A program made the translations under genes and the position numbers. The notes beneath the pieces are model-generated. The model saw nothing but the letters and a program-made list of their open reading frames with translations. It ran no database searches and was not told the origin of the DNA. Shown here one piece after another: positions 15,525 through 57,932 of a stretch of DNA of 64,000 nucleotides; the first letter of the stretch is position 1, and each line of letters begins with the position of its first letter. Source of the DNA: Tetradesmus obliquus (Eukaryota; Chlorophyta; Chlorophyceae; Sphaeropleales; Scenedesmaceae); the NCBI GenBank assembly GCA_030272155.1, contig CP126206.1, forward strand, positions 3,162,001 through 3,226,000, given 5' to 3'.

Positions 15525-18500
15525 CTACGCATCAGCAGTTGCTGCCTGCAGTACTGCTGCATACTGCCGGAACTGCCGCACTGCAGTGGGGGAGGCCAGA
15601 CCAGCTGCCTCAAGCAGCTCCATGCGCAGCGACATCTGCCGCAGCAGCAACTGCAGCAGCTGCTGCTGCTGCTGCTGCTGTTTGCCATTGAGCTCCTGCA
15701 CAGGGTGATGCTGCTTCTGCAGCCGCTGCAAGGCAGCCATGAACTTCAGCGTTGCAACCATGCTGCTGCCGCTCACGCCTACAACAGCAGCAGCAGTCCC
15801 ACCGCCGCTGCTGCTGCTGCTGCTTGGCTGCTCTGCCGCCAGCAGCTGCCGCAGCCGTTTAAGCGCACCCTGCTTCCAACTATCAGCTGGCACATGCCGC
15901 AGCAGCACACACGAATGCAGCAGCATGTTAATTTCTGCTGTGCTAGCAACTGGCAGCAGCTGCTGACTCTCCAGCAACCAGGTCTCAAGCCAGGCCGAGT
16001 CTGGCCTACACCCTAAACCCACAGCGCCCCACAGCCCTAGCGCCAAACCGCTGTGGTTCAAATTTGTCCTGAGACCTGACAGCCTGCTAAGCACTGCGGC
16101 TTGGCAGCTGAGGTGGACCTGCTGCTGCTGCTGGTGCTCTGCTTCACCCACTGCTGCTCCTGCTGCATCTTGCAGAGCATGCTCCGCTGCCTCACCCTGC
16201 GGCGCTGCTGCTGCTGCTGCTGCTGCAGGCAGCCCAGCCCCTGGCAGCCGCAGCCGCAGCACCGCTGCAGCATGCAAGCAGGCTGGTACATGCACTCGGC
16301 TCAGCGGGCCATCTGCCAGTACCACTGCCATGACCCAAGCTGGCCCCACACCTGCCTGCTGCAGCATGCTGCGCGGCAGCTGCTTGCGCAGGCCTGCTAG
16401 GCCCAGCAGCAGCTTGAAGATATGCTTGGACAGCTGATAGGCAGCAGCAGCATCACTCCTGCTGCTGCTGCTGCTGCTGCCACTGCTGCTGCTGCTGCCA
16501 GTTGCTAGCTCGCCAGCGGTCTCACTATTGCCATCATCATCAATTCCGTTTCCAAACTGCCGCTGCTGCTGCTGCTGCAGCAGCAGCGGCTGCAGCTGCA
16601 CGCGTGCAAAGGCCAGCAGCCGCTCCAGCAGCTCCTGAGGCACTGCCACCAGCTGCAGCCTGCCTAAGGACCACATGACATTTGCTAGCTGCTGCAGTGT
16701 GAGCTGGTCAGCTGTCCAGTACAGCTGGTCAAAAAGCTCCAGCAGCCAGGTACCTGGCAATCAGCAGCAAGGCAAAAGTTCGCATGAGTCAGCAAGGTCT
16801 TCTTTTCCAAATATATTGAAATGGTGGGGTTTTGGGGGTGAGGGTCAAGCATTGTTGCGCCAGCAGCCGCTCCAGCAGCTCCTGGGGCACTGCCACCAGC
16901 TGCAGCCTGCCTAAGGACCACATGATATTAGAGAGCTGCCGCAGTGTGAGCTGGTCAGCTGTCCAGTACAGCTGGTCAAACAGTTCCAGCAGCCAGCGGC
17001 CTGGCAATCAGCAGCAAGGCAACAGTTCTCATGAGTCAGCAAGGTCTTCATTCCAGACTAGTTTGAACTGGTGGGGGTTTGGGGGTGAAGGTCAAGCATT
17101 TTTATGCCAGCAGGCGCTCCAGCAGCTCCTGAGGCACTGCCACCAGCTGTAGCCTGGCTAAGGACCAAATGACATTTGCCAGCTGCAGCAGTGTCAGCTG
17201 GTCAGCGGTCCAGTACAGCTGGTCAAACAGCTCCAGCAGCCAGCGGCCTACAAAAGATAAACATCAGTATGCAGCGCATACTGCATGTTGCCATGAGCGT
17301 CGAAGTCAGCGATCCAATGCAGCAGCACCTGTAGCAGAAAGTGTTACAACAGGCTTTGTGGTTAGCATGAGGCACTGCCACCAGCTGCAGCCTGCCCAGG
17401 GCCCAGATGATACTAGAGAGCTGCCGCAGTGTGAGCTGGTCAGCTGTCCAGTACAGCTGGTCAAACAGCTCCAGCAGCCAGCGGCCTGCGAGGGTTGCAT
17501 GCAACGTAACACATGTTAGACTGTTCATATTTACAGGTTACACCTGAGGTTTAGGGTGGGAGGTGGGGTTCATCAAAGTCAGTACAGCTGGTCGGACAGC
17601 TCCAGCAGCCAGCGGCCTGCAAAACCATGCACGTGTTGGGCACTGCTCAGCATATTGCAGTGATGGTTGAGGTCACCTATCCAGTTCAGAAGCACCTGTA
17701 ACACACAAGGTGTGAAAACGGGCTTTGCATTTAGTACAGCTCTTGGAGCATTGCTGCCAGCTGTTCAATACAGCTGGTCAAAGAGCTCCAGCAGCCAGCG
17801 ACCTGCAGGGAACAGCAAGGCAACATGTGTTTGCATGTGTTGGCAAGATCTGTGTTTCTCAGGATAGGTACACAACAGCAGAGGGCGGCGTTGAACACTG
17901 CACTGTCAAGCCAGCAGCCGTTCCAGCAGCTCCTATGGCACTGCCACCAGCTGCAGCCTTTCCAACACAGCAGAACCTACAACACCTGAGGTTTTGATAC
18001 TGTGAGGTTAGTTCGGGGCGCTGCCGCCAGCTGCAGCCTGCCCAGGGCTCGCAAAATGGGGCTCAACACACATGGCAGCAAACAAACAGAGCATGTGCAC
18101 AGCGCCACCTAGCATCTGTGCTTTGTATACCGTCAACAACTGCAGACGCTGATTTGCAAGCTATTTAGGTCCCTGAACGCACCTGGCGGCAGGTAACGCA
18201 TGCGTGCAGCACCAACCAGCAGCGCTGTCAGCTCTGGGCAGCTGGCGCCTGCAGCAGCGCACAAAGACATACCTAGCGGTTACATTTGTTACATCCATGC
18301 GGTAGCACACACATGGTTGGTGGCTGACCTGTTGCTGGCATGATTTGTGCAGCGCAGTGAGCTCAGGGCAGCTGGCTCCTGCAGCAGAACACACAAATAG
18401 ATGGAGGTGTTACATCGATGCTATCATGCGACATGGTTGATGGTTGATGGTTGACTGCTGCTAGCAGGATTCATGTGACGGCAAGCACAGATGGTGCTGT

Positions 18501-21170: not shown

Positions 21171-22985
21171 CCGAGCCTCTTCCGCAATCATCACCCATGC
21201 ATGGCAGCCTGCCGGCCCGATTGCAATGCCCAGGACCAATAGGTGGGAGGCCTTTTAGGCGACGCTCATATGCACCTGACTGACACTCAGCTACCACTGC
21301 TGCTGCTGCCACCGCCGCAGTCCGTGCAGCTGCAGCCACAGCAATGAAGAGACACTGATGGGCAACTGCAGGCAGCTGCCACCCCGCTGCTTCCGTGAAG
21401 TTCCTGGTGCTGCTGCTGCTGTTGCTGCTGCTGTCACAGCGCTCCAGAGATGTCCCCACACAGCCACAGCGCCAGGCCAATGGCGATGGCCGGGCCTAGT
21501 ATGTGCGAGGCCTTGTATGCGACGACCATCAGCACCAGCAGCCGCCCTGCTGCTGCTGCCGTTGCTGCAGCTGCCGCCATTGCTGCCGGTGCTGCTGCTG
21601 CTGCTGTCACAGCGCTCCGGAGATGTCCCCATACAGCCACAGCGCCAGGCCTAATGCAATGCCCAGGCCTAGGATGTGGGAGGCCTTGTAAGCCACGGCC
21701 ATCAGCAGCCTTCGTGCTGCTGCTGCCGTTGCTGCAGCTGCCGCCATTGCTGCCGGTGCTGCTGCAGCTGTTCCCGTTGCTGCTGCTGTCACAGCGCTCC
21801 TGAGTTGTCCCCATACAGCCACAGCGCCAGGCCTATGGCAATGGCCAGGCCTATACGTAGGAGGCCTTGTAAGCCACGACCATCAGCACCCAGCAGCCGC
21901 CCTGCTGCTGCGGCAGCAGCTGCCGCCGTTGCTGCCGGTGCTGCTGCTGCTGTTTCCGTTACTGCTGCTGCTGCTGCTGTCACAGCGCTCCAGAAATGTC
22001 CCCATACAGCCACAGCGCCAGCCCTATAGCAATGGCCAGGCCTAGAATGTGGGAGGCCTTGTAGGCGATCACCATGAGCGCTGATGCCTTGGTGCAGTGC
22101 TTTGGTGGCACCAGCGCAGGAGCGAGGATGTAGCCCATTGTGCTGCAGCAAACATGGAGCAGCGCCGGAAACTTTATCAGTAAGGGTCAAAAGGTGCCGA
22201 AGATCAAAATGATTATGATAGCGCTGGCTTTGGTGCAGTGGCTGGGTGGCACCAGCGCAGGGGCTGATATGTAGCCCATGGTGCTGCAGCACGGCAGACA
22301 AGGAAGCGCGGCACAAAGAAGGTGATGACACATACGTCCAAGGTATTGCATTGCAATGAAGCGGATGCTTTGGTGCAGTGCTTGGGCGGCACCACTGCAT
22401 GAGCTAGAATGCAGCCCATAGTGCTGCAGCAGAAGAGGCGGGGGCGCAACTAGGGTGGGAATTTGACTTTAAGATTATGAAGAGTAGATGTGAAGAATAT
22501 ACATGATGAATGCATCTGCAGAGTTCAAACAGAAGCCGTGACAACATGTGCAACAATAGGTACTATCCATGAACATCAGCAACCAAACCTTTGAAAACCT
22601 AGCATAGGCTTTACACGACTCCTTACCCGAGACCAATATGTGTGCTATATGACGTGAGCGCTGTGGCTGCAAAGGCTTTGGTGCAGAAGCAGACTCCATC
22701 AAACTCGAACCGAAACTAATCCTTGTAACAGCAATCAAACCACATCATAGCACAGCAGCTTACCTGGCGCTACAGTCCGCCAGAGATGCCGCCATACAGG
22801 CCAAGCGCTATGCCAATTGCGATACACAGTCCTAAGATGTGCGCAATCTGATAGGTAAGCGCCATGGTGGCTGAAGCCTTGGTGCAGATGCACAAACCTT
22901 CCAATCCAGAACCAAAACCTATCCCATTTTTTGCAAGCAGCCGTGCAACACAACAACAAAAAAGAAAAGTGCAACACACCTCTTG
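21170..22985 (-). repeat. Array of about nine terminal-exon copies downstream of the transporter
   Basis: After the first terminal exon (23150-22988) come, in order on the minus strand: a copy lacking the head at about 22890-22773 with its own stop; a degenerate fragment at about 22690-22615; head-only copies at about 22430-22350 and 22285-22200; a complete copy at 22142-21980; and tail copies with stops at about 21885-21795, 21715-21615, 21535-21435 and a worn one at about 21275-21175. The complete copy is 163 nt, exactly the length of the first, with a ctgcag acceptor, the same phase and the same type of C-terminus (LVPP...ASA...GLAIAIGLALWLYGD). Confidence 0.88.
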
Positions 22986-22987
22986 CT

Positions 22988-23860
22988 CTACAGTCCGCCG
23001 GCAATGTCGCCATACAGGCCAAGTGCTATGCCAATCGCGATGCACAGCCCTAGGATGTGCGCAATCTGATACGTAAGTGCCATTGTAGCGGACGCCTTGG
23101 TGCAGATGCGGGGCGGCACTAGGCTAGGTGCAAGGATATACGACATGGTGCTGTGTGTTGTTGTTTGTTGGTGTGTGTATGCGGCATAGCGGTGGTGTAT
23201 TGCGTGTGTGCGCAGGTGCGGGAAACATGTTCGCGCAGAGCCGCAATCAGGCAACAACCAGGTAAGCAAACAAAGACACCACGGGGAAAAGCCCAACCAA
23301 AACACACAGGCACAGCAGCGCGAATTGCCGAGAGCGGTGTAGGCGCCGGCGGAAGATTGGCGTAGGGCGCGAATGGTGCGAGGTCGCGCCGTGGCCAGCA
23401 ACGGCGGCAGCAGCAGCAATGCAGCAGCGGCAGCAGCAGCGAGGCGGGAATGAGCGACGCCCAACCACTAAGGATCAGCTAACAAGGGTGCTACTCAGCA
23501 GCTGCAGCGCAGCCGTCACCCATACAATAACAAGCCTATGCAGCTTGCACAGCGCTGTCGGCGCCCGCACCACACAGGGCAGGTGCAGCAATACCACATT
23601 CGTAACAATGCTGCCAGGGCAGCAAATCAAACGGGTAACACGCCACAAAAGCGGGTCTAAGCCAGCCATCAGCAATGTTCCAAGCAGCCAGAGCGCCCAG
23701 GCTGCCGTTTGATTAACATGTGCTACATTGAGACGCCCTGTTCACCATCATCCTAGTGTCACCGCCATCGGCTGTACTCACTTGATGTACCCCCCTCCCA
23801 GCCACAGCGCCAGCACCAGCACCATCACATAAGGGTCGTACTGCATGCGCGGCGGCACCT

Positions 23861-25606: not shown

Positions 25607-28600
25607 GCTGCCAGGAGCTGCCCATCCCTGTTGAGAGTATTCCATACCCAGCTGGCTACTGCCACCTGCTGCTGCTGCTGCCTGTCCCCGCTTGCCGGGC
25701 TGTGGCATCTCCGTCTGCTGCTGCTGCTGCTGCTGCTCAGCTGCTATAGACCAGTCTTCCCCCTCGCCTGGCGCTGCTGCTGCTGCCGCCGCTGCTGCTG
25801 CTGCCGTTGCTGCTGCTACCAATGCATTTGCGAGTGGCACATCGTCCGCATCATCGTCATCATCACCTAGTAAGCTAGCAGTGGTGGTGGTAGGAGCACT
25901 CGTGGCCATCGGTAGCTGCCGCTGTGCAACAAATGCATCACCAGGAGCGCCAAAGTCTGGCAGATCAGCCAGATAAGACCCCACCCCGGCCGCAGCAGCA
26001 GCAGCACTACCAACGGCAGCAGCAGTGTTATTTGCATCGCTGCGTGGCATCGGTATAGGGCAGGGGCTTGCAGGCCTGCTGCTGCTGTAGGGGCTGGAAG
26101 TGCCGATGCTGCCAGCAACAAACCCGGAACCAGGCAGCAAATCACTGCTGCCACACTGCTGCTGCTGCTCTATATCACCCAGCCATGCTGCACTGCTGCC
26201 GCCCTGCTGCTGCTGCTGCAGCCACTGCTGTGTCCGCTGCCTGCCAGAGGTCAACGAGGAGGCAGCAGCAGCAGCAGCACTGCCAGCCGCTCCTGCTGAC
26301 AGCTTCGATGCTGCTGCGGCTGCAGCAGCCTTGCCTGTCTTGCGCGGCAGTGCTGCTGCCGCTGCTGCCGTCGCTGCTGCGGCTGCTGCCGCCGCAGCTC
26401 GTGCACGCGGGCTGCTGCTGCTGCCTGCCGTCTCGGCACGGTGCAGGCCACGCGCTGCTGCTGCTGCTGCTGCTGAGCGGTGCGTGAGGCGCCGTATGTC
26501 TGACAAATCTTCTGACAGTGCGCGGCGCAGCAGCGGCCGCAAGTGAGGCAGCTCCATACCTGCACACATATGCATGGCAAGCACAAACACAGCGGGTATT
26601 GCAGTGAGCATGTCAGACAGGTCGTGTGCCAGTGCACGGCGCAGCAGCGGCCTCAAGTAGGGCACCTCCATAGCTGCATACCAAATGCATGGCAAGCACA
26701 ATACACAGCAAGCATTGCAATGCGGTTGATTTGAAAGCGCTCGCTGCAGCAGCGGCCGCAAGTGCAGCAGTTATGAAGCAGCATAGGTTACAAAGAATGG
26801 CGACTGGTGTAATAAAATAACACAATGTGCGTGATCGCTGCCCCACACACCACAACATCACACTGCAGGAACAGACTAAATCCACGCATTGCTACTGGTG
26901 TTATTGTTATTGACAATCATGCTCACATGGCATGGCGGTGAAAGGGAAAGCCGTGAACAACAGCAGAGCCAGCCTATTTTTATGAATCTAATTTCATGAC
27001 CCTCATGCTGTGCTGTCATTAATGTGCACACCTGGCATGGTGGTGAAAGGGAAGCCTTGAAACGGGTCCTGCATGGTGAGCATGCGGCTCAGCATCAGCG
27101 CAGCCTCCCCTGCCTCGTCATCAACATGATCTGCAGCAGCCTGGCAACAGCAGCAGCAGCAGCAGAAGCAGTGGCGACGGCAGCAGGAGCAGCAGCATGT
27201 CAATTGGTGGTGTCAGCATGCGGCTCAGCATCAGCGCTGCCTCCCCAGCTTCATCGTCAACATGATCTGCGGCAGCCTGGCAGCAGCCGCAGCAGTGGTG
27301 CAAGCAGCAGCAGCAGCAGCGGCAGCAGCAGCAGCAGCAAGGTTCAATAAACATGAGGCTCAGCATCATCATCCAGTACTGCCACAGCAGCGACCAAGCA
27401 GCCAGCAGGCCGACAAGCACCAGCCCCGCAGCAGCCTCGAAATACAACAAAGCAATCCACTGCCAGTGCAGGGAAGAAAATGAAGAAAACACCATACAAT
27501 AGCCAGTTCGCACGCACGCGCACCTGTTCTGCGCTGTCCAGCAGTGGTGTGCTGCTGTCGACACATTCCTGCCTTGCCGCACGAAATATTCCAGTACTGC
27601 CACAGCAGCGACCAGGCTGCCAGTAAGCCAACCAGCACCAGCCCAGCAGCTGAATGCAACACGAGACAAGCACAGCAATTCAATTCTAAAATGTCTTCTG
27701 TTACTGCTCACCTGCTCTGCGCTGTCCAGCAGTGGTGTGCTGCTGTCCACATACTCTTCTTCGCCGCACAGGATGTTCCAGTACTGCCACAGCAGGCTCC
27801 ACGCAGCAAGCAGGCCAACCAGCACCAGCCCAGCAGCTATATTCCCTTCTAAAATGCCTTCTGTTACTGCTCACCTGTTCCGCTCTGTCCAGCAGTGGTG
27901 CACTGCTGTCAGCATACTCTTCTTTGCCGCACGGGATGTTCCAGTACTACCACAGCAGGCTCCACGCAGCAAGCAGGCCAACCAAAACGAGCCCTGTAGC
28001 CGCCTCAAAAAACAACAAAGCAATCCACTGCCAGTGCAGGAATGCAGAAAATCACCACAAAATAGCCAGTTGGCACGCACGCTCACCTGCTCTGCGCTGT
28101 CCAGCAGTGGTGTGCTGCTGTCAACATACTCCTCCTTGCCGCACAAGATATTCCAGTACTGCCACAGCAGCGACCAGGCTGCCAGTATCCCAACCAGCAC
28201 CAGCCCGGCAGCAGCCTCAAACAGGCCGATCCACTGCCAGCGCTTTGGAGTGGTGCCGATGTGTAGCGCAAGCTGGATAATCAGGGCCAGGGGACCAGAG
28301 GCCACACAGCCAATGCCCAGAGCAATTGTGTCCGCAGATCTGCAAGTGTGGAAGCAATGTGGTGCACAGGGTTGAATGATCACAGGTTCGGGGTTGGCAG
28401 TGGTGACAGTGGTGCTAATGTGCAGCGCAGGCTGGATGATCAAGGCAAGGGGACCGGAGGCCACACAGCCAATACCCAAAGCAATCGTGTCTGCAGACCT
28501 GCAAAAGTCGAGAAGGCACAACATACGGCTTCAGTTGTACAAGGTTTCAGAGTCCAGGGTACTACAGACCCAAGGCACACCACCAGCCACAGCAGGTAGA

Positions 28601-32462: not shown

Positions 32463-32736
32463 AGGTGGTGGCTTCAGAAGTGGGTGCCACCATCCCCGGC
32501 ATTGATGCAGACAAGCAGCCGCAGTTCCTGCTGGAGCTGGTGCAGGCATACGGCAGGGTGAGCTTCGTGATTCTGTAATGTTTGTGTTACCTGATATACA
32601 CGTGAGCAGCCGCAGTTCCTGCTGGGACTGGTGCAGGCTAACAGGCGGATGAGCTGCATGCTTAGTGTTAAGATTTGTTTGAAGTTGATGGCAGCAACTT
32701 CAAGGTTTCTGTTTTTCGGCAGCAGCAGTAGCAGCT

Positions 32737-42666: not shown

Positions 42667-42743
<77 letters not shown>

Positions 42744-44502
42744 ACACCTGCTTTTTCGCTGCTGTTTTTGCTGCCGCACAGCTTGCGCCAACAGCAAGCA
42801 CAAATTGAAAGCTGAGCGCGCTGCTGCTGCTCCTCGCCAACCACCACTTGCTGCTTCTGCCACGTTTTGGTGTCGTTCTGCAGCCTGCTGCAGCAGCAAG
42901 CACAACTTCAAGCTGCAGATGCCTCTTTTATCATCCTTAATCAATATCATCTTACTGCACCTGTTGCATTCATTCTGCACTGCTCTGCAGCCTGCTGCAG
43001 TAGCAAGCACAACTTCAAGCTGCAGACGCTGCTGCCGTACGTGTTTGACGAGCTGCGGGGAGGCGACACGCTGGCGGTGCTGCTGCTGCGCAGCATCCTG
43101 CGCAAGATGACCGGCGTGGACGGGGTGAGCCACCTGACTTGTCACATTCACAGCACTGTTATGTTACATCGTTACTATTGCAACATGTTGTTTTTCCTGC
43201 AGCCCGTTGATGTGGCCCCTCCCCAGGCCAGCCTGCTGTGCAGGAATATAGCTGACTGAATTGTTACCTTCACAGCACTGGTATGTCACCAATACCAATA
43301 CCAATACCAATACATGTTACATTGTCGCTGTTTGTAACATGTTGTTTTCTCGTCAATCCTGAAGCTCGCCAATGTGGACCCCTCGCAGGCCAACCTGTTG
43401 TGCTATGGCTCAGTCATGCAGGCGGGGGCCATCCACAGCACTGCATTGTTACAATGTTACTAAACATAACATGTTGCTTTTCTGCCTTACCTGCAGCCGG
43501 CCAACGTGGACCCCTCCCAGGCCAGTCTGCTGTGCTGCGGCACCGTCATGCAGGCGGAGGCCATTCACAGCGTGGCAAACAGAGAGGAGCCAGCTTTCCA
43601 GATGGGCCGCAGCACACTGCTCAAGGTGAGGTTTTGGGTTTCATGGGTTATTTTGGGTTTATTTTGGGTTATTTTGTATCAGGGTTTAGCAAGACCTGAA
43701 ATGATACAGGCGAAGGCCATCCACAGCGTGGCCAACAGAGAAGAGCCTGCCTTCCAGATGAACCGCAACACGCTGCTCAAGGTGAGGTTTTGGGTTTCAT
43801 GGGTTAATTTGTATCATGGTTATGGAAGATTTGGGGTCATGCAGGCGCAGGCCATCCACAGTGCGGCAAACAGAGAAGAGCCTGCCTTCCAAATTGGCCG
43901 CAGCACACTGCTCAAGGTGAGGCTTGGGTTTTACAGTTTGTTTTGTAGCAGGGTTTGGAAAGGTTTGAAATGATGCAGGCGGAGGCCATCCACAGTGTGG
44001 CAAACAGAGAAGAGCCAGCTTCCAGATGGGCCGCAGTACCCTGCTCAAGGTGAGGTTTTGGGGTTTTGATGTTTAGTCTGGCTTGTTCGAGGACTGGGCC
44101 TGTTGGTGATGCAGGCAGAGCTCAGTCACGCAGTGTGGCAAACAGAGAGGAGCCTGCCTTTCAGATGGGCCGCAGCACCCTGCTCAAGGTGAGGTTGTTG
44201 GTTTCATGGGTTCTATCAGGGTTTTGGAAGATTTGGGGTCATGCAGGCGGAGGCCATCCACAGTGTGGCCAACAGGGAGGAGCCAGCTTTCCAGATGGGC
44301 CGCAGCACGCTGCTCAAGGTGAACACATATCCTGAGTTACAGCAGCCAGGCTATCAGGTTGTCAGTTTGTTTGTGCACACGTGATAAGCAGGGGCTTACT
44401 GGCTGTTCATTCAAGCTTCCTTGGCTGCAAAATGTAGCAGCTGCTGGTGCCGCTGGATGTGGTGATGGCTGATTTATAAACCTTCCGCCATTGCTTCTGT
44501 TC

Positions 44503-44553
<51 letters not shown>

Positions 44554-47500: not shown

Positions 47501-50500
47501 TCTTGGATGCTTGAGTTTCGTCGAAATCAGACAGAGAGAAGCGGTGTTTGGAACGGCTGCAGACCGCCCCTGTGCACGGCAGGGGCGTCCCCAGGGTGGG
47601 TATTTGCTGTGTTTTGCTTTTGGTATAGGGTTTGGGGGTGCCATTGCGTGTTTTGCTTTTGGTATAGGGTTTGGGGGTGCCATTGCGTTCAGACAGCGAG
47701 AAGAGGGGCCTGGAGCGGCTGCAAACAGCCCCCGTGCACGGCAGAGGCGCACATATAGCCAGCGGAGTACCTAAACACTCCCGAAGTCATGTGGGAGTTT
47801 TGATTTTCAGTGGCTGGGAGTAGGCACCTACTCCCGCACCCCAACTCCCATGGAGTTGGGCCTGGAGTACCCCTGACTGGAGCACCCAGGAGTACTCCTA
47901 AAGTACTCCAAATTTGTTTTTAAACTCCAGGAAGTATGTGGGAGTACTCTGGGAGTACTTCGGGAGTGCTTCAGCACCATTCCCGCAGAACCCTCGACCT
48001 GCCTGGAGGACCACTCCGAAGTACTCCAGCTACTCCAGGCTGACCTCCAAACTCACGCGAGAGTGCAGATGCGCCGTTTGCGACAATAACAATAAGTTTC
48101 TATCATTCCGAACCTACATTCTTGTTCTGGCTGAGCTCACGCATTCGCCAAAAGTTCCTTCTGGGTAGCTTGACGTGGCAGTTCCTTCGGTGCACGCGCC
48201 TTTTAACAAACAAGCATCGACAAATATTGCAACGTGAACGATTGCACCGCGTGAGGGTGCAAAAGCCGAATTTTCTTCCCTCGGTCAACTCTATAGGCCC
48301 AGCTCGGTCACTGGTCAAACTCCCCACAAGAACAGCAGCTGCACCTCAGCACAGCAGTGCTCATGATCAGCATACACTGGAGGTAATCGAACGAACAGCT
48401 AAAAAGTGACATCAAACCCATACACAACAACAGGGACACGGTGCTGTTTTGTAGACTCGCAGTGAAGCAAGCAATTAGGTCTTGTCTGTCGGCGCCATGC
48501 TGTACACTGTACACCGCGGCAGTTGTGCAGCCAGCCAGCAGCAGCAGCAGCAGCGTGAGCACACGCCTCCTCCAGAAACATTAGACGCGACGTGCTGGGT
48601 TTGATTTAGGGTTCAGGGTGCAGGGTTTGGTTTAGGTGATGCGTGCAGGTGAGGGTTTAGGGTTTAGGGTATCAGTGCGGCGATGCGAGCGGAGCTAAAC
48701 CATAACCCTAGCCTCCTAAAACCCTAACCCTAACCCTAGGCCACTGCTAGGCCGTGCTTCCCTGTGGTGGTGTGCTGGCTCGGCCGCCCACAGCGGCCCT
48801 AACCCTAGGCCACTGCTAGGGTTTTAGGAGGCTAGGGTTATGGTTTAGCGTAGCCAGTACGCAGTTTAGGGTTCTGTGTGGGGTTTCGGTTTAGGTGATG
48901 CATGCAGGTGAGGGGTTTAGGGTAGTTTGCGGTGAAGGGTGCAGGGTCTGGTTTAGGTGATGCGTGTAGGCCTAAGCACCCAGGTGCTTTAGCTGCCCTC
49001 GCTTTCCGTTCATGCTGCACAACAATTGCACGCTATCAGAGCGTGCAAACAACATAGGGCTTGTTCATCTGAAGGCAAGCAGCAAATGACATTGTACATG
49101 CAGCAGCAGCAGTCGAGATGCAGCTACGCAGCATGCATGCCAGCTGATGACGCATCCTGCAGAAGATGCAGCAGGCAGTTGTGCTGCCCTCTGCTTGAAT
49201 GGGCTTGTGCTGTAGTGCGACAGAAATGTGCCATGCACCACTGCACAGTGCACTCATGTGTGCAACTCATACAGGATACACCGGGCACACGGCCTCAATA
49301 TGAAATAAACAAAGTGCTGTCGTGTATGCTGAAGTACTCGAGTGCTGTTCAGTGCAACCTGGTCAACAGTAGAACTACTTTTGATGTGGTGATTGGCACG
49401 CGCCAAGTGTCCTGCATTGAAAGCTACAACTACATATCTTCCCCTTTGTGATGTTAAGCAACGACGCCGCGCCGCTGGGCGGAAACCATCGCATCGCATA
49501 CTGCACGTGCACGATAAGTGAATGTCTGGCTGAAGTACAGCTGTTCACTCGGAATATATATTGACTTATAGCAATCACGTTGCTTTGAAATAATTTTAAT
49601 AAAATGCGAACGCTGGCTGACATGCTGAACTGCCTGGAGTAGCTGGAGTACTCCGGAGTGCTACTCCAGGGGCCTGCCTGGGTGAGTGCGGGCGGGAGTA
49701 GCGGGAGTACTCCGGAGTGCTACTCCAGGGCCGGTTAGTACTAGGCCAGTAACTGGAGTAGCTAGAGTACTCCGGAGTGCTACTCAGGGGGTTGGCTAGG
49801 GTAGGAGCCATCCCGGAGTAGCGGGAGTACTCCGGAGTGCTGCTCCAGGGGGGTAGGGTGTGTCTCTTGCTGGGAGTACTCCCTGGAGTAAAATGGGAGT
49901 CTTAAGGCACTCCGCTGGCTATATGTCCAGAGGCGGCCCCACGGTGGGTTTTAGGGTTGAGCACCTAGCATATAGGGTTTTAGGCTTTTGAGTTCAGCTG
50001 CAGAACAGCATCGACAGCAAGAAGAGGGGGCTGGAGCGGCTGCAGACAGCGCCAGTGCACGGCAGGGGCGGCCCCAGGGTGGGTTGTTTGTGTTTTGGTC
50101 TGGGGTGTTAGTCGTTGGGTCACTGGGGTATCAGCCTGTGGGTTTGGGTTGAGGTTCAGTCACTAGTCATTGGGATTGCAGTCTTCTTGTTGAGGACCTG
50201 GGGCCAGGCAAGGAGGCCAGCCAGCTGCCGAACTCGATCGACAGCGAGAAGAGGGGGCTGGAGCGGCTGCAGACCGCCCCCGTGCACGGCAGAGGCGGCC
50301 CCAGGGTGGGTATTTGTTGTGTTTTGCTTTTGGTATAGAGTTTGGGGCTGCCATTGCGTTCAGACAGCGAGAAGAGGGGCCAGGAGCGGCTGCAGACCGC
50401 CCCGGTGCATGGCAGAGGCGGCCCCAGGGTGGGTATTTGTTGTGTTTTGCTTTTGGTGTAAGGTTTTTGGGTGCCATTGTGTTCAGACAGCGAGAAGAAG

Positions 50501-53500
50501 GGGCTGGAGCGGCTGCGGACCGCGCCTGTGCACGGCAGGGGCGGCCCCAGGGTGGGTTTTACGGCTGAGGTTTTCTTTGTGTGGGCTTTGTGGCAACTCG
50601 TGTACAAGGACAGATTCACAGCTCAGGGTTTCAGACCTTGCTCAGTACACCGTGTCAGCTGGCCGAACTACTCCTTTACTGCCTCTGAATGACACGCCGC
50701 ATCTGCATTGCTGCCCTGCAGGACTTTGACCTGAACCGCATCATCGACAACATCACCGCCAAGCAGAACCAGCTGGCGGAGCTGGAGCGCAAGGCGGCAC
50801 ACTTCAAGGTGAGGGTTTGACATGGTTTTTAGGGCTTTGTGCTTGGGGTTTAGGGTTGTGGTGTGGAAGGAGAACATCACCGCCAGGCAGAACTAGCTGG
50901 CAGAGCTGGAGCGCAAGGCGGCACACTTCAAGGTGAGGGTTGTAACACATTTGAGGTTGAGGGCTCTGTGCTTGGGGTTTTGGCAGATCAATTCGTGCTT
51001 GAAAGTTGCATGCCATCTTTTTGTGTGTTGTGCGCTGCCCTGCAGGCTGTGCTGGTGCCGTTGAATGCAGAGCGCAACGAGCTGGTGGCTCGGCACCGGC
51101 ACCAGCCAGGATCCACACTGTTGTTGAATGCTCTTAGTCATCTCTTACCAGTATTATGTACTAGATGGTAACTAGTCGTTATGCCCGCTTTGTGCTGCGC
51201 TGCAGACCGTGCTGGGGCCGCTGCGTGCAGAGCGTGATGGGCTGGTGGCTCGGAATTGCATCGGCCAAGATCCACACTGTTGTTAAATGCACTTAGTCAT
51301 CTCTTATCAGTATATTGTATCAGATCACGACTAGATGATTTCCGCTTTGTGCTGCCATGCAGGCCGTGCTGGGCCCGCTGCGTGCGGAGCGTGATGGGCT
51401 GGTGGCGCGGCACAGGCAGGTGCTGAAGCGCATGGAGGCTGAGAAGGACACCTATATGGCAAAGGTGGGGGCGGTTGTTTTGCTTTCATTGGTGTCAACC
51501 TGTATCTGCAGCATGCCGATGTGATGCAGTAGTTGCCAGAGCTGGGTGGTGGCCAGCTACAAGCAGGTGCTCAAGCGCATGGAGGCGGAGAAGGACACCT
51601 ACATGGCCAAGGTGCGGTTCCTATCAGCTGATGTTGTCATTCCAACCACAACTATGTTATGTGGCGCTGCTGTCGCCATAACGAGCTGTTGGCGCGCCAC
51701 CGTCCGCTGCTGAAATGCTTCATTCCCAAACTTCCTGGTGCTTCTATCACGCAACTCACCCCCGTGCTTACACCTGGCATGTAGACCCTGTCACCTGCCC
51801 TGCAGAAACCGGTCGTCAAGCCGCTGGCGATTGCCTTCATCAGGCACTGCCTGGTGCCACGCCTCACGCTTGCATTCCTAAACCCCCTTGTGTGTGCAGA
51901 CCCCGTGTACCAACCTCAAACCTAATGCTACCCTGTGTAGATTTGTCCTGTTGTAATGCCTCTGAACCCTGCTGTTGGCCCTGCAGAAGCCTTTGGTGAA
52001 GCCGCTGGCCATTGCCTTCATCAGGCACTGCCTGGTGCCACAGCTCAAGCTCCCATTCCTTGTGCTAACCATACATTCTTATGCCTGAACCCTGCACTTG
52101 GCCCTGCAGAAGCCTGTGGTGAAGCCGCTGGCCATTGCCTTCATCAGGCACTGCCTGGTGCCTGGACACACTCACTCCTACAAATCCTGCACATGTGTCG
52201 ACATCGTGAAACAAACCCCAATGTTGACGTTCTGCTGAACTCTACATGATCCTTTCTTAAATCCTGCAGAAACCCGTGGTGAAGCCGCTGGCTATCGCCT
52301 TCATCAGGCACTGCCTGGTGCCGCGCCTCACGCGCAGCCTTGCTGACGCCACCTTCTGCCACCACTTCACAATGGCGCTGCACACCATGGACACGCCATA
52401 CTGGCCCGCAGCCTTCTTCTGGGACTACGTGAGTTGCAGTAGTGTTTCTTAGATATGTGGTATGCTGTGATGTGTGAGTTTGTCGCCATGCAACGTGCTT
52501 CAGCGTTTTTGTTGTGGAATTTGGTTTGTGGGCCACCTTCTGCCACCACTTCACGATGGCGCTGCACACCATGAATGCACCCTACTGGCCGGCAGCCTTC
52601 TTCTGGGACTATGTGAGTGACCCATGTTTTGAAACACTGTTTTCAGGCTTTTGATGGTGTGATCGTGTGATGGTACCCACAAAAATGCAGCAGTGTTTTT
52701 TTGCTGCATGTCTGTTTTGTGGGCCACCTTCTGCCACCACTTCACGATGGCGTTGTGCACCATGGACACGCCATACTGGCCCGCAGCCAACTTCTGGGAC
52801 ACGTGAGTTGCATTAGTTTTTGTTAGATATGTTTTATGCCTTCGAGGTGTGAGTTTTGTACAAATTGCATCAGCGTTTATGCATGGTATAGAAGAGCGGG
52901 TTCCTGGTGTAAATGCTGTTTGGTCTGCCATCTTCTGCAAGAGGAGGCCGATCAAGCGAATAACACCAGGAAGGCTGTCTCCTTCAGCACAATATGTATT
53001 TTTTCACCTTCTGCCACCACTTCACAATGCGCTGCACACAATTGCCGCGCCCTACTGGCCCGCAGCCTTTTTGTAAGACTATATGTGTGTTTTTTCTTTG
53101 TCTTGCAGGCGGTGACTGGCCTGACCAACATGATCCCAACAGTGACAGAGAAGGAGGCGCTCTGCGTGGGCGTGTTCCTCACGCTGCTGCTGCAGGACCT
53201 GCAGGTGAGTTTGACCGGGTTGACTAAGGTTTGACCAATGTTTGACCAGCGTTTGACAAATGTTTGACAACATCCAAAGTGTAGGAGTCAGCTGTACCTT
53301 GTGTGCTTGGTTGACCTATGTTTGACCAAGGGAGAACTTCACACTGTGCGTGCCCTATGCATTGACACTCAATGAACGTCAGCCTGCATTCCATGTGGAT
53401 GCTCTTAAACTTCTGCCCTGTTTATGCACTGTCCCTGCAGGTGTGGTACTTTGACGAGGCGCTACAAGTTGGACTGTGATCTAAACCCTAAACCCTAAAC

Positions 53501-55042
53501 CGCTCCTTTAGCACTTCTTCGTTACTCACTTGTCAGTCATTTTCCGCTTATATGTCACTCTTTTGTTGCCGCAGGTGTGGTACTTCGACGAGGCGCGCTA
53601 CAAGCGGGACTGCAATCAGCAGACCATGAAGTTCAGCGTGAGTGGCTGGCTGGTGTGACTGGTTCGGTCAGCGGTGAGGCAGGGTTTATTTGCAGGGTAT
53701 AAGGCAGGACTGCAACCAGCAGACTATGAAGTTCAGCGTGAGTGGCTGGCTGGTGTGACTTGGTTTGGTCAGCGGTCAGGCAGGGTTTATTTGCAGGGTT
53801 TAAGGCAGGACTGCAACCAGCAGACCATGAAGTTCAGCGTGAGTGGCTGGTGTGAATGAGCCCAGTCAGTGGTTGGGCAGGGTTACAGTTGTGGGATGTG
53901 AGTCGAGCCTACAGCCAGCAGACCATGGAGTTCAGTTTAAGCGGCTGGCTGGTGTGACTTGGTTCGGTCAGCCGTTCTTGCCACTTCTGCTTTTCTTTCT
54001 GTCCCTTCTGGCGCTGCTGCTACTGCTGATGCTGCTTTTGACCATGCACTTCAAAGTCGGCTTCTGCTTTTGTCCCGCGCTCTTGCTGTACTGTTGTTGC
54101 TGTGCAGGCCACCAACGCCACGCATGTCCACCTTTGCTCAGTTGCAGAAGCTGCTTAAAAAGTGGCAGATGGAACGGTTCGATCAGCGCACTTTTTCCTC
54201 AAAAGCGTACTTTGTCTGCTGTGTGTTTCAGCTGCCTTTGCCGTGACTTTGCCTTATGCTCTGCTGCTGCTGCCGCTGCTGCTATTTCCACACTGCAGGC
54301 CACCAACGCCACGCCTGCCACCTTTGCGCAGTTCCAGAAGCTGTTCAAGAAGTGGCAGACGGAGCTCTTCAAATCACTCAAGGGCTGCGCAGCAGGCGGC
54401 GAGTACCTGCAGAAGCGCAACGCGCTGCTCATCATGTCCAAGATGATCCAGGCAGCACCCGCAGACAAGCCGCCAGTGAGGGTTTGGACGGATCGTGGCT
54501 AGAATTTTGTCGTTGTGTGGGGTTCTTGATGAGGCGGTTGGCGAGGTCCTGCAGATGCGCAACGCACCGCTCATTATGTCCGAGATGATCCAGCTAGGAT
54601 GTATGTCTAGGCTGTCGCAGCCGGCTACTAAGTTTCTATGACGGTGAATGAGCAATGGTGCGCTGCTTGCTGCCAGGACAACCATACGCGCGCGTGGTCT
54701 GCCCATATGCTGCTGGCAGGTGTGGCGCCGTAACATGCTATCGTTGCCTTGTGCTGGCGCTGCTGCTGCTGCTGCTGCTGCAGCAGCAGACGTTCCCCAT
54801 ATGCAGCACGTATTGCGTTGAGAAGACAGAGGTGATGGAGGAGTCCCTCGTGCGTGATCTTTCCTTACTGCTGTTGCTGCTAATGCTGCTGCTGCTGCTG
54901 CTAATGCTGCTGCTGCTGCTGCTGCTGCAGATGTTCCCTGTGTACACCACGCACTGCGAGCAGATGAAGGAGGTGTGAGACGATTCCCCTCACACATGAA
55001 CATAGCACTCACTTCCATTGCTGCCGTGGCTGCTGCTTCTGT

Positions 55043-55094
<52 letters not shown>

Positions 55095-57932
55095 ACAGAT
55101 GTTCCCCGTGTACACCACGCACTGCGAGCAGATGAAGGATGTGATGGAGGAGATCCAGCAGAAGGACGCACGCGAGGACGTGAAGAAGATGGCCCAGGTG
55201 GGTTTTGTTACATTTGTGTTACAGTTGTTGCATGACATGTTACTTTGTCAGATGAAGGAGGTGATGGAGGAGACCCAGAAGAAGGACGCACGCGAGGACG
55301 TGAAGAACATGGTTCTGGTGGGTATTGTTACGTGTGTGTTGCATTTGTTAAATGACGTGTCAGTTTGTTTTGGATGCGAGGCAGCAGCACAGCCCCTGGC
55401 AGTTGCCGTTGGTGTCTTGTGTTGCTCTGCTCCAGCTGTAGCTGTTGCCCTGGTTGGAAGCACATGGATTTCAGCAACGATGTCACCAATGCATGTCAAG
55501 AGTCCCCTTACATAAGCGTCTTCTTATGCTGTTGCTGCTGCTGCTGCTGCTGCTGCCCTACAGGCGCTGGCAATCCAGCTCAGCAACAAGCTGGGCAAGT
55601 GCGTGCCCATGCCTCAGGATGCTGGCAAGGCCAAGCTGGGCTCACGCGGTGAGCAGCTTCTTTTGAAGTTGTCCAAACTATCGTCAAAACTATCGTCATA
55701 GCACACATGGTGTAGGTAACTTTGGTGCATGCTAGCATAATGACCAGCTGACAGGATGCTGGCAATCAGTTGGTTGTTGCGTACATACATGTAGCAGAAT
55801 GAATGTTGCGTCCTTTATTGCTGATTGAACGCTGCGTAATTCAAGCTGTTTCACTGTCAAGTTGAAGCTTGCTTATGTTGTTGCTGACTTTGGTTAATCT
55901 TCTTGTGCTGTTACCGCTCGCAACAGGCGCGCCTGTGCGCGGCCCACCACTCAAGCGCAAGCCGCCAGCGTCACCCGGCAAGCAGCCCGGCTCGCGCCCC
56001 TCCACGCCCCCGCCATCAGCAGCAGCAGCAACAGCAACAGCGAAGGCAGCAGTAGTGAAGGCGGAGGCTGACACAGCAGAGCCAACAGCAGAAGCTGCCG
56101 CGGATGCAGCTGCAGACAAGCCAGCTGCAGCAAAGACAGAAGAGGGGGGCAAGGGAGGCAGCAAGCCATACACGAGCGGTGCTGCCGGCGGCCCGCGTGC
56201 AGTGCGCAAGGGCCAGCCAGCGCCGAAGCAGCAGTTGCAGCAGCAGCAACAGGGCAGCAAGCCGCCTAGGCCAGGCAGCGCAGATGGCGAGCCTGCGCGC
56301 AAGAAGCAGAGAGTGACGCCGCCTAGTAGCAAGGCAGACGGCAACGCCACGGCAGCAACAGCAGCAGAGCAGGAGCCGGGGGAGGTGATGGAGTCGGCTA
56401 ATGCTGAAGGGGGTGGTGTTGCTGCAGGTGATGCAGGTGGTGATGGCAGCGCTGCAGGAGCCAGCAGAGATGGAGGAGCAGCAGTGGCTGGCGACGGCGC
56501 GGGTGCCAAGCCCAAGCGGGAGGCGGTACCCCGGCCGCCGAAGAAGGCCGGCGTAGCAGCAGTAGTTGCGGCAGCGGCGGCAGCGGCAGCACATGCGAGG
56601 GGCCGCAAAGATGGCAGCAGCGAGCTGAAGCAAGAGGAGCAGCCTGACGAGCAGCAGCAACAGCCGCAGCGGCAGCGGCAGGAGGAGCGCAACCGCCACC
56701 CCACGCCTGACCTCGCGCGGGGCCACCACTCACACCATTCGCAGCAGCAGGACGAGGCTGCCACTGCCTCTCCTGCTCGCAGCCACAAGGGTGAGAGGGG
56801 CGCCTCCCCTGGCAGTAGGGAGCAGCAGCGGCAGCCGCACGAGCGGGGCAGTGACAGAGACCGGGGCAGGGAGAATGACAGCGGCAGGGATGGCCGCGAC
56901 GGCGGCAGCAGGCACCACTCAAGGGACAGCCGTGAACAGCAAGACGAGGCGCCTGCTGCCGGTGGTGGTGGTGGTGGTGGCACGGGCAGCAGCAAGCGCC
57001 GGCGCGGCGGCAACGGCAGCGGTGGCACCGCAGAAAAAGCAGCGGAGGCGCCGCCTCAGCAGCAGCAGCAGCCGCGTGAAGACCGGGATAGGCCTAGCAG
57101 CAAGCCGCGGGACAAGGACAAAGACCGCGAGGGGGACGGAACGCCCGGCGGCGAGGGTGGCCGTGAGCAGCAGCACGGCCGGGGTGAGAAGGATCGGGAC
57201 AGGAAGCGGGAGCGCCGCGAGAAGAAGGGCGGCGGGGACCGGCAGCCACAACAACAACAACAACAACAGCAACAGCAGCAGCAGCAAGAAGACCGGCGGG
57301 ACAAGGGCTCTCGGGAGGGCGGCGGCAGCCGGTGAGTAGCGCGGGCCTTGTTCAGTGTTTGCAATGCTAGTTGCTCAGGCAGCATCGTATGTGCGGCTTC
57401 TTGCAGCCAAGGCCAAGACGGTTTCTGTAAGATGCTCTTACTTCAAATCAAATATGTCTCGTATGCCGCAAACAAATGCTTGATTGAAATTGCCCCTTGT
57501 TCAAGTACAGATCATCAATGAGTTGGTGGAAGACACTAGTATGCATCTAGTTCTGCTGACCGGCACCATGTGTGCACCATGCACTCGTGTTGCTGGCGTT
57601 TCCTTGCATGCAGGGACGAGCCTTCGGAGCCGTCAAAGAAGCGCCGCCTTGATGACGACCGCTCGGCAGATGGCGGCGGTCGCGAGCAACAGCAGCAGCC
57701 CAGCCGCCGCCAGCAGCAGGACAAGCAGCAGCATGAGCAGCGCCGTAGCGCCAAGCACACCCCCATCATGGCGCCAGCTGATGAGGCTAAGGCTGGTGGC
57801 AAGAGGGATGGTGGGGGTGGTGGATCAGGGGGAGGTGGAGCAGCGGGAGGAGGAGGGGGAGGAGGGGGAGGAGGTCATGAGAGGGGTGGTGAGGAGCGCC
57901 AACATGGTGGCGGAAGCAGCCGCAGGCGCTAG
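31855..57932 (+). CDS. THOC2: THO complex subunit 2 (THOC2/Tho2), 35 exons
   Basis: THOC2 is the large scaffold of the nuclear THO/TREX complex that couples transcription to mRNA export. Exons: 31855-31926, 32465-32557, 32774-32806, 33228-33316, 33814-33889, 34581-34711, 35089-35210, 35523-35647, 35863-36006, 37168-37360, 38122-38780, 39018-39434, 39853-39972, 40463-40584, 40784-40853, 41072-41182, 41966-42065, 42991-43124, 43497-43625, 44785-44937, 45272-45454, 45614-45806, 46467-46606, 46868-46929, 47180-47324, 50722-50808, 51363-51464, 52270-52428, 53109-53204, 53575-53637, 54299-54475, 55099-55197, 55564-55648, 55927-57331, 57614-57932. Every junction is GT-AG with matching phase; the sum is 2,135 codons. 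Family marks: YNLLREENEGY (about 166), LDPNRV (about 210), KAGDWQHA (about 565), the Tho2-type region ADATFCHHF...PYW (about 1360), and a charged, disordered Lys/Arg/Gln-rich tail from about 1562. Exon 3 and the first exon are the least certain. Human THOC2 is about 1,590 aa. Confidence 0.93.
32600..33130 (+). repeat. Copies of THOC2 exons 2 and 4
   Basis: Partial copies of the exon 2 end (QPQFLLELVQAYGR) lie at about 32608-32650 and 32865-32915, the latter with a GTGAGC donor. A copy of the exon 4 start (GVLQLDAFFQAI) lies at about 33088-33125 behind its own ttctcag acceptor. Confidence 0.8.
33531..33606 (+). repeat. (CAG)n run inside THOC2 intron 4
   Basis: About 25 sense-strand CAG triplets follow an earlier (CAG) run at about 33327-33369 in the same intron, while a (CTG)n run at about 33777-33810 precedes the exon 5 acceptor. 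The two classes are complementary within one intron. Confidence 0.92.
33970..34845 (+). repeat. Copies of THOC2 exons 5 and 6
   Basis: Exon 5 end copies (EELGELA...KK/RGK) lie at about 33978-34024 and 34110-34158. Exon 6 head copies (RRVVMELxEPxLIVAA) start behind ttctgcag acceptors at 34286 and 34434, 148 and 147 bp apart from each other and from the real exon 6 at 34581. An exon 6 tail copy (ARERKVFTATFYKQDK) lies at about 34793-34843 with a GTGACA donor region. Confidence 0.9.
36254..37592 (+). repeat. Array of eight THOC2 exon 10 heads plus one tail
   Basis: Heads coding A-GHVSLEGVLAYIAPSAD follow acceptors at 36254, 36371, 36488, 36620, 36737, 36879, 37037 and the real exon at 37168 (steps 117, 117, 132, 117, 142, 158, 131 bp). 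Only the last continues in frame to a donor. A tail copy with the donor (LTDDVKQLGLVKLGDGGKEAP) lies at about 37470-37590. Spacers are poor in unique sequence and often contain repeated TACTGCCTG. Confidence 0.93.
37843..38280 (+). repeat. In-frame triplication at the start of THOC2 exon 11
   Basis: The block GNLDAIASERGITNDVKDDAY begins behind an actgcag acceptor at both 37843 and 38122, and a shorter relative (LDAVASERG) lies at about 38035. The frame is open from the first to the last copy, so the upstream acceptor would give a 938-nt exon and a 2,228-aa protein, and the downstream acceptor a 659-nt exon. Both are phase 1. A (GCT)n poly-Ala run at about 37970-38028 separates the copies. 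Confidence 0.85.
39715..40270 (+). repeat. Copies of THOC2 exon 13
   Basis: A head copy (VCKVLAEVALPALSLSQAN) lies at about 39718-39785 before the real exon. Two tail copies (ELWxVMQLLPFH) lie at about 40050-40102 and 40219-40267 after it, each ending in a GAG|GTG donor. Confidence 0.88.
41270..41775 (+). repeat. Four copies of THOC2 exon 16 end
   Basis: Units coding EPLAxVLKLPNPLxMDALTYM and a following GTGA-type donor lie at about 41278-41341, 41428-41491, 41559-41622 and 41708-41771, 130-150 bp apart. The stretches 41335-41490 and 41615-41770 are nearly identical, including intron, so duplication included two units at once. Confidence 0.92.
42170..43240 (+). repeat. Copies of THOC2 exons 17, 18 and 19 head
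   Basis: Exon 17 ends (ANEEDWVSGVADLVGI type, each followed by GTGAGCAG) recur at about 42192-42255, 42425-42478 and 42560-42612. Exon 18 heads (SKHNFKLQ type) occur at about 42782-42815 and 42883-42925 before the real one at 42991. A worn exon 19 head lies at about 43200-43250. A (CTG)n run interrupted once fills 42660-42743. Confidence 0.88.
43366..44318 (+). repeat. THOC2 exon 19 cassette array, period about 134 bp
   Basis: A head copy lies at about 43366-43432. After the real exon 19 (43497-43625) come five tail cassettes, each with its own AG acceptor and GTGA donor: 43710-43781 (72 nt), 43845-43916 (72), 43979-44049 (71), 44115-44188 (74) and 44247-44318 (72). The three 72-nt units are phase 0 at both ends and code AIHSxANREEPAFQ-type peptides, so they could be spliced in without a frameshift; the other two would shift frame. 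Confidence 0.92.
44558..45220 (+). repeat. Copies of THOC2 exons 20 and 21
   Basis: Exon 20 heads (LTEGSxDQQLLVPL) lie at about 44560-44632 and 44675-44725 before the real exon at 44785. An exon 20 tail copy (HLDWSLFTLHTQHLKELAEQ) with a GTGTGT donor lies at about 44990-45083. A copy of the exon 21 head (IMMLKHCVLKDQEM) lies at about 45172-45218. Confidence 0.9.
45895..46400 (+). repeat. Copies of THOC2 exons 22 and 23
   Basis: Exon 22 tail copies (LPEEGEAxQxxEGP type) lie at about 45903-45955 and 46090-46140, each ending in GTGGGT. An exon 23 head copy (ESAAKLALP with the Ala run) lies at about 46311-46400 behind an acgcag acceptor. Confidence 0.85.
47750..49927. mobile_element. Non-autonomous DNA transposon (hAT-like, 8-bp target duplication)
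   Basis: The left end begins CACATATAGCCAGCGGAGT; the reverse complement of the right end begins GACATATAGCCAGCGGAGT, so the terminal inverted repeats match at about 22 of the first 24 positions. The direct 8-mer CAGAGGCG flanks both ends (47742-47749 and 49928-49935) and occurs once in the uninterrupted exon 25 copies, which is what an 8-bp target-site duplication predicts. Subterminal regions are full of GGAGTACT/AGTACTCC motifs; on the right side four units of about 60 bp repeat the core GGAGTACTCCGGAGTGCT (about 49636-49850). No transposase frame is seen; the longest frame (49026-49451) has no recognised family. An 8-bp duplication fits hAT or P-type elements. The host intron is otherwise intact. 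Confidence 0.82.
48600..48960. repeat. Telomere-like repeats and 33-bp inverted repeat inside the transposon
   Basis: Scattered GGGTTTAGGG and CCCTAACCCTAACCCTA stretches resemble plant/algal telomere repeats. Arms 48694-48726 and 48817-48849 (starting GCTAAACCATAACCCTAGCC) are exact reverse complements with a 90-bp loop. They lie in the middle of the transposon. Confidence 0.85.
50860..51620 (+). repeat. Copies of THOC2 exons 26 and 27
   Basis: An exon 26 tail copy with an in-frame TAG (after ITARQN) lies at about 50870-50932. Exon 27 head copies (AVL/TVLGPL...ERxxLVARH) start at about 51046 and 51206 behind ctgcag acceptors before the real exon at 51363. A tail copy (QVLKRMEAEKDTYMAK) with a GTGCGG donor lies at about 51558-51612. 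Confidence 0.88.
51800..53080 (+). repeat. Copies of THOC2 exon 28
   Basis: Heads (KPxVKPLAIAFIRHCLVP) follow ctgcag acceptors at about 51807, 51989 and 52111 before the real exon at 52270. Tail copies (ATFCHHFTMAL...PYWPAAFFWDY) lie at about 52532-52613, 52721-52801 and 53008-53080; the first keeps a GTGAGT donor, the others are worn or frameshifted. Confidence 0.9.
53430..53945 (+). repeat. Copies of THOC2 exon 30
   Basis: A head copy with a deletion (VWYFDEAL) lies at about 53441-53480, followed by three CCCTAAA-type telomere-like units (about 53484-53504). After the real exon 30, tail copies (QDCNQQTMKFS type, each with GTGAGTGGCTGG) lie at about 53700-53738, 53806-53840 and a worn one at about 53905-53940. 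Confidence 0.88.
54100..55325 (+). repeat. Copies of THOC2 exons 31 and 32
   Basis: Exon 31: a head copy (AQLQKLLKKWQ) at about 54108-54170 and a tail copy (QMRNAPLIMSEMIQ) at about 54553-54602. Exon 32: heads at about 54788-54850 and at 54931-54972, the latter 42 nt with a ctgcag acceptor and GTGTGA donor and phase 0 at both ends; a tail copy (MKEVMEETQKKDAREDVKN) at about 55252-55317 with a GTGGGT donor. (CTG)n tracts precede the exon 32 head at 54931 and the real exon 32. Confidence 0.9.
55927..57932 (+). other. Disordered charged tail of THOC2 (exons 34-35)
   Basis: The last two exons encode about 574 residues rich in Arg, Lys, Glu, Gln, Gly and Ser, with KRKPP, KKQRV, DRDRGRE, RKRERREKK and SKKRR basic patches and a terminal SSRRR. 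Animal THOC2 also ends in a long Lys/Glu-rich tail that contacts RNA and export factors, so this matches in kind but not by sequence. These exons have no local copies, unlike most others in the gene. Confidence 0.8.

Follow-up and report, generated by a model that had tools for sequence, protein, structure and literature searches.

Same-strand copies of exon ends in the introns of THOC2 and other genes of a green-lineage genome

Results

Genes and exon copies in the window

We analyzed a stretch of 64,000 nucleotides (the window) on contig 16, positions 3162001-3226000, of a genome of 104.66 Mb in 17 contigs, in which the introns of a THOC2 gene and of neighboring genes carry many copies of parts of their own exons. 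RuBisCO small subunit and light-harvesting families were found in the genome, which on established knowledge of the green lineage indicates a photosynthetic eukaryote; by the earlier reading and the genome size it is probably a green alga. Comparison of the window with itself (BLAST with strict dust masking, E<=1e-6, the opposite strand serving as chance control) gave 151 direct local pairs against 2 inverted ones, and 136 of the 151 were separated by at most 1 kb. The local same-strand exon copies that an earlier sequence-only reading had described in three genes of the window are therefore real. Exon models came from a small gene finder, self-trained on the window and on the loci sampled elsewhere in the genome.

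The THOC2 gene hosts most of the exon-end copies; its coding span by the gene model is 32465..57810 on the plus strand, with uncertain ends. We picked one member of each set before the PDB search; the protein assembled from these exons matched human THOC2 (7apk_B) with E 1.9e-66 (phmmer), and all three THOC2 domain matches of the genome lie in this locus, only the best candidates being scored. Local copies with at least 30 bp of exon exist for 23 of the 29 exons chosen as functional, up to 7 of them for a single exon. The count ranges from 21 to 23, as exon 38122 is possibly a coding repeat in a long open frame and exon 45614 has a weak match of 31 bp; the earlier estimate of two thirds of THOC2 exons with one to eight copies each was close to this. 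The open frame 37707-38807 (plus strand) has an internal repeat with differences of 1/1/15 by codon position and is maybe a true protein repeat.

All THOC2 features are on the plus strand and are placed by gene model and alignment. Exon 43497..43625 is the source of an array of five downstream 3'-part copies at 43704..44322 (43704-43785, 43836-43920, 43973-44053, 44106-44192 and 44238-44322), and in all five the alignment shows exon homology ending at donor +4. Exon 52270..52428 has copies on both sides: three 5'-part copies with acceptor at 51799..52162 (51799-51869, 51980-52050 and 52103-52162) and three 3'-part copies at 52532..53081 (starting at 52532, 52723 and 53005). Exon 41072-41182 is followed by four 3'-part copies (starts 41263, 41410, 41541 and 41690; the whole at 41072..41773), while exon 51363-51464 has two 5'-part copies upstream and one 3'-part copy downstream (51544-51617; the whole at 51031..51617). 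In 54928..55368 exon 55099-55197 is found with an upstream 5'-part copy (54928-54975, 95.8%) and, nearby, a 120-bp unit repeated head to tail (55129-55248 and 55249-55368, 86%). Exon 37235-37360 has a 3'-part copy at 37468-37604 (92%; feature 37242..37604), in which homology stops 15 bp past the donor. The exon family “NSIDS..” at 47240..50558 has members at 47240, 47394, 47530, 47692, 49994, 50222, 50363 and 50486, and it is uncertain which of them is functional.

The minus-strand genes at 15.5-31 kb of the window hold arrays similar to those of THOC2, so the sequence-only reading was right to extend the pattern to two other genes, although its names for them fared less well than THOC2. In the OPR-like gene an exon-part array lies at 16634..17959, with a 247-bp period at 16612-17249 and more parts at 17368, 17580 and 17758; a Pfam search of this gene gave no support for the OPR label, and the name is unconfirmed. 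In the ENT-like gene there are repeats at 21434..23109 (21434, 21607, 21789, 21980; 22764, 22982), which were read as exon parts by eye and from the gene of the earlier reading, most of these exons being missed by our gene model, and exon-part arrays at 27372..29467, including one of 149-bp period at 28661-29336. The ENT label is weakly supported, by a Nucleoside_tran Pfam match below cut-off (E 0.0038). No whole-gene duplicates were seen, as had been stated before.

Anatomy of the copies

Beyond the window the survey covered 31 loci, 18 on the seven largest contigs (C1-C7, 6-11 Mb) and 13 on the ten smaller ones (C8-C17, 3-6 Mb). The sizes were 10 kb for 24 loci and 4 kb for 7; a further locus (L007, C2:400001-410000) is all N and was excluded from every count, so that 31 of 32 loci were used. 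By the gene models of the window and these loci, all 310 local exon-copy hits are on the same strand (0/310 inverted). The non-redundant set over all loci is 236 exon-copy pairs. Copies range in identity from about 66% to 99-100%, which agrees with the range from identical to barely readable noted earlier.

The copies follow a side rule: 5' exon parts with the acceptor lie upstream of the exon, and 3' parts with the donor lie downstream of it. Outside the window the rule is kept by 113 of 116 one-ended copies (60 upstream and 53 downstream, against 3 and 0 of the opposite kind) and inside it by 72 of 81 (28 and 44 against 8 and 1); the 9 opposite-side pairs of the window probably come in part from the family at 47240-50558, where the functional member is uncertain. 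Of the 236 pairs in total, 197 are one-ended, 185 of them on the ruled side and 12 on the other; a further 18 are contained within the exon, and 21 extend to both of its ends. The copies are thus mostly exon ends and not exon-sized, as had been supposed. The side of a copy is tied to the exon end it carries, which indicates tandem duplication across one splice junction and not free-standing exon copies. Head-to-tail duplication across one junction also explains why there is usually one complete exon per set.

Splice site and nearest copy are a median of about 79-87 bp apart, and spacer length is unrelated to the length of the copied exon part (Spearman -0.06). A predicted exon is touched by 214 of 291 in-gene repeat pairs, with 167 expected from random placement (1.28x); the comparison includes in-gene pairs only, as 18 intergenic pairs had no computed expectation. 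This excess is modest, yet in this sample the outcome that the earlier reading had named as refuting, copies as common in non-exonic DNA as around exons, was not seen. The remaining 77 in-gene pairs touch no predicted exon, some of these being exons missed by the model, and short purely intronic tandem units persist (e.g. L020 1942, L024 8544). A breakpoint motif was sought and rejected, there being weak enrichments only.

Distribution over the genome

A local copy was found for 19 of 191 exons on the seven largest contigs, for 66 of 110 exons on the ten smaller contigs and for 44 of the 65 exons in the window; with exons that are themselves copies removed, these counts become 18/190, 46/90 and 30/51. 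The median coverage by direct local repeats is 2.2% in the 18 loci on the largest contigs and 24.7% in the 13 loci on the smaller ones (Mann-Whitney U test, p 1.6e-5), the same contrast is seen with equal 4-kb tiles, and in the sampled loci coverage drops as contig size grows (Spearman -0.79, p 1.8e-4, 17 contigs). Inside each contig size group the trend is not significant, and a gradient is indistinguishable from a step. Coverage is mostly high in the loci on C8-C17 (3.5-64%) and low in those on C1-C7 (0-6%, with one of 17%). The window is typical of its chromosome class. The process is local and acts on the same strand, as the sequence-only reading proposed, but the sampled loci do not support its being special to three genes: copies are frequent on the smaller contigs and infrequent on the largest seven. 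On the large contig C2, however, 5'-part copies with near-identical units of 127 bp form an array at 3080-3560 of locus L009, and large contigs are thus not exempt from the process. The 17% coverage on C6 (L017, C6:2300001-2310000) comes from two direct pairs; their median offset is 7.9 kb, whereas the arrays are short-range.

Base composition does not separate the two classes. Between large and smaller contigs there was no significant difference in guanine-cytosine (GC) content (0.576 vs 0.565, p 0.13), in GC at third codon positions (GC3; 0.762 vs 0.746, p 0.43), in G-quadruplex motifs (G4) per kb (0.267 vs 0.112, p 0.78), or in non-coding GC and coding share. GC or G4 as the cause of the chromosome difference was therefore rejected. 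Triplet runs, microsatellites and longer tandem repeats do differ between the classes (p 0.039, 0.014 and 0.019, respectively). Runs of (CTG/CAG)n are numerous in all loci, and the share in runs of at least 6 is 2.35% on smaller and 1.42% on larger contigs (p 0.039).

Splicing and constraint

The inherited GT is retained in 96 of 106 3'-part copies and the inherited AG in 75 of 85 5'-part copies, which would be about the level of neutral decay at 6% per site. At the broken ends no splice site was found above control windows (new acceptors, p 0.47), and acceptors there show no preference for multiples of three (32/31/26 of 89). Donor-like sites at the ends of 5'-parts are in frame in 30 of 52 cases, and those within ordinary exons in 130 of 282. 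New splice sites at broken ends were rejected, since there is no excess over controls and donor-like sites of ordinary exons also lean in frame. Most copies look unspliced.

Codon-position, frame and gap tests in the copies were done for THOC2. By codon position, changes unique to one copy number 51/51/82 and those unique to the functional exon 2/0/17. Many copies keep the exon frame, with 3 stops in 1275 codons and 11 frameshifting gaps in 64 pairs; the earlier statement that exactly one member of each set fits the frame does not hold, and what is absent from the copies is one exon end with its splice site. Mismatch rates in the 64 pairs are 6.1/5.7/20.5% by codon position, with no base-composition bias, and the exon part has 14 gaps per 421 mismatches, fewer than the 53 per 358 of the flanks.

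Exchange among copies and the extent of homology

Of the 142 informative site pairs in 20 families with at least 3 copies, 68 conflict with any single tree, against an average of 13 of 82 in simulations on fitted trees, and incompatibility as high as observed occurred in 0 of 200 simulations. Singly, 5 of the 20 families reach P<0.05; several are without an informative site pair, and two pairs of families overlap and are not independent (exons 50004 and 50195; 43497 and 43710). Unequal crossing-over or conversion thus appears to move sequence between family members.

Usable flanks were available in 73 of 77 single-copy families, and 18 of the 73 are head-to-tail full units, homologous over at least 70% of the spacer (e.g. 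55129/55249). Pairs with homology ending near the splice junction, called bounded here, number 112 of 236, of which 104 have usable flanks. Alignments may be shortened by hard dust masking, therefore raw flanks were aligned or printed as well. The similarity of flanks averages 11.5 in bounded pairs and 8.6 in mismatched controls (p 3e-14), and some bounded pairs keep traces of the duplicated intron. Full units make up 48 of 141 pairs with a predicted exon and 13 of 52 pairs without one (p 0.30; several of the 52 are exons missed by the gene model), and among young pairs 2 of 36 and 2 of 11 (p 0.23). Coverage of the unit is as low without an exon as with one, which argues against bounding specific to exons.

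Other features of the window

An open frame at 62123-63580 (minus strand, 485 aa) has an RNase H domain (Pfam E 4e-9) and is possibly a retroelement remnant. Near it, and outside the exon-copy pattern, is a 174-bp tandem pair at 58504-58861 with a related third copy at 61680-61841, 3 kb off. The open frame 8533-9930 (plus strand, 465 aa) gave weak FRG1/DUF569 matches below cut-off and contains a 21-bp coiled-coil repeat array.

Discussion

With somewhat better than even confidence, we attribute the exon-end copies to short tandem duplications over one splice junction followed by exchange, with recombination as the likely driver. Such duplications would arise often, and far more so on the smaller chromosomes. 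Each would leave the functional exon whole and place a spare end with its splice site in the intron, silent because the other exon end is absent. Repeated unequal exchange or gene conversion between the exon and its spare ends would then expand and shrink the arrays and keep the exon core alike, while unconstrained intron parts would diverge, so that visible homology would end near the splice junction. The driver would probably be recombination, presumably higher per base on small chromosomes.

Several observations weigh against this explanation. The first is how homology stops: it ends at most 21 nt from the splice junction in 47 of the 73 single-copy families, and the youngest-looking material is no exception. 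Among 20 pairs of at least 95% identity there are 14 one-ended ones, besides 3 contained in the exon and 3 that extend to both its ends; all 14 one-ended pairs stop at most 21 nt past the junction, none of them has long intron homology, and the printed flanks of near-identical copies look unrelated. Plain tandem duplication does not yield such a stop in near-identical copies. Just 27 of the 104 bounded pairs are singly above the 95th percentile of the flank controls, and exon identity is not lower in bounded than in full-unit families (0.897 and 0.920, p 0.24). The nearest spacer is below 40 bp in 2 of 119 cases only and never below 30, a minimum that is unexplained, and the 18 pairs wholly inside the exon and the 12 that break the side rule do not fit the geometry. 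GC3 is a usual correlate of recombination and does not differ significantly between the contig classes. Finally, third-position mismatches between exon and copy are 3.1 times commoner (bootstrap 2.7-3.5, 113 exons), which is above the approximately 1.7 expected for copies neutral since copying; with the fewer gaps in exon parts this means that some copies may be under constraint. Exchange offers a possible answer to two of these points. If restricted to a conserved core, it could explain the stop of homology, and since it would pass synonymous variants through the functional exon and filter others, it could raise the third-position share.

The stop of homology could also be attributed to a single event in which DNA from the exon interior to just past the junction is copied to a site typically 50-110 bp off, one end of the copy being set by the splice junction in a process informed by RNA or chromatin. 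We regard this as doubtful. In its favor, the 22 most similar pairs include 15 one-ended ones (94.5-98.8%) that stop 3-14 nt beyond the junction and whose flanks look unrelated, and the 14 of 14 stops at 95% identity or above, the 47 bounded single-copy families and the independence of spacer and exon-part length all suit it. The side and same-strand rules, on the other hand, suit tandem duplication better than an inserted piece, full-unit tandems make up 18 of 73 single-copy families, bounded flanks are above control on average, and the homologous share of the unit is no smaller with exons (48/141 vs 13/52, masking shortening the alignments). We also know of no machinery for such copying. It would require a DNA-level process that reads exon ends and copies a few bases past donor or acceptor, chiefly on small chromosomes and in a lineage far from birds, and such a process seems to us unlikely.

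Less probable still is that the copies are functional alternative or extra exons, with purifying selection accounting both for where homology ends and for the third-position excess. The mismatch rates in the 64 THOC2 pairs, the fewer gaps in their exon parts, the ability of the gene model to thread many copies in frame and the 30 of 52 in-frame donor-like sites at 5'-part ends are all in accordance with it. However, the broken ends lack splice sites above control and their acceptors lack a frame preference, inner donor-like sites of ordinary exons lean in frame likewise, and changes found in a single THOC2 copy are spread 51/51/82. Plain neutral tandem duplication seen through a detection bias, the exon half remaining recognizable since the functional exon is conserved, would fit the side geometry and the exon involvement of only 1.28 times expectation, but it gives no account of bounded homology at 95% identity and above, of the exchange signal or of the third-position ratio, and we find it very improbable. 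An assembly artefact, such as two diverged haplotypes stitched together, is the least credible, for although third-position-rich differences and diverged introns would resemble two alleles, haplotype stitching does not give as many as seven copies of one exon, a truncation that goes with the side of the copy or a relation to contig size, and the genome's three THOC2 domain matches (best candidates only scored) fall in one locus.

The arrays are a natural splicing experiment, as many decoy splice sites in genuine exon context must be ignored. Gene predictors thread exon-end copies into false proteins. Should the organism prove to be an alga that can be cultured, the mechanism would become testable.

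Three known kinds of duplication are partly similar. Tandem exon duplication, including that of mutually exclusive exons, gives neighboring same-strand copies of whole exons with both splice sites and the frame kept. The likeness lies in neighboring same-strand copies; here, however, just 21 of 236 pairs reach both exon ends, and broken ends are without splice sites above control. Minisatellites and short tandem duplications consist of head-to-tail units that expand by unequal exchange, and they are alike in both respects, but here the unit is tied to a splice junction and its intron part is often unrecognizable in the outermost copy. Repair-mediated duplication captures proximal DNA in free orientation and gives local spaced copies of about 150 bp at an average distance of 1.2 kb, with one exon case in opposite orientation (Pace et al. 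2009, PMC2671141). Local spaced copies of that size are the likeness; our 0 of 310 inverted hits, side rule and median nearest distance of about 79-87 bp are the differences.

The closest counterpart is in birds. The sequence-only reading knew of no named mechanism; the pattern has since received a name, in February 2026, as the exon form of sequence stuttering on avian dot chromosomes, its cause being left open by the authors (Hron et al. 2026, PMC12954441). Among the matches listed for “stuttering” as a genome term since 2024 this was the only paper, and among the matches listed from the open-licence PMC literature there was no report of exon-end copies in an alga. In birds, lateral exon parts with a splice site are repeated in the adjoining intron, 190 of 236 exon-stuttering introns are on dot chromosomes, intron-only repeats occur too, and intron length varies extensively within species (PMC12954441). 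The authors propose a link with GC-rich and G4-rich sequence and with recombination, GC and G4 standing outside their definition (PMC12954441). The avian case shares with ours the same-strand copies (310/310 here), the side rule (185 of 197 one-ended pairs), the copied part spanning the exon-intron border with its splice site (GT 96/106, AG 75/85), the purely intronic repeats and the preference for small chromosomes (Spearman -0.79 in our sampled loci). It differs in that ours is a green-lineage genome, where contigs of 3-6 Mb are compared with contigs of 6-11 Mb and are not tiny dots; in frequency, which is 3.4% of avian dot introns in a stricter, differently built screen (PMC12954441) and here roughly one half or more of the exons sampled on the smaller contigs; and in base composition, the contig classes here showing no significant difference in GC and G4, unlike the link proposed for birds. 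The exon-end copies are best classed with avian exon stuttering as one kind of phenomenon, which here occurs in a new lineage and in a different base-composition setting. The same anatomy with no difference in GC or G4 would set chromosome size, and perhaps recombination, apart from base composition as its cause.
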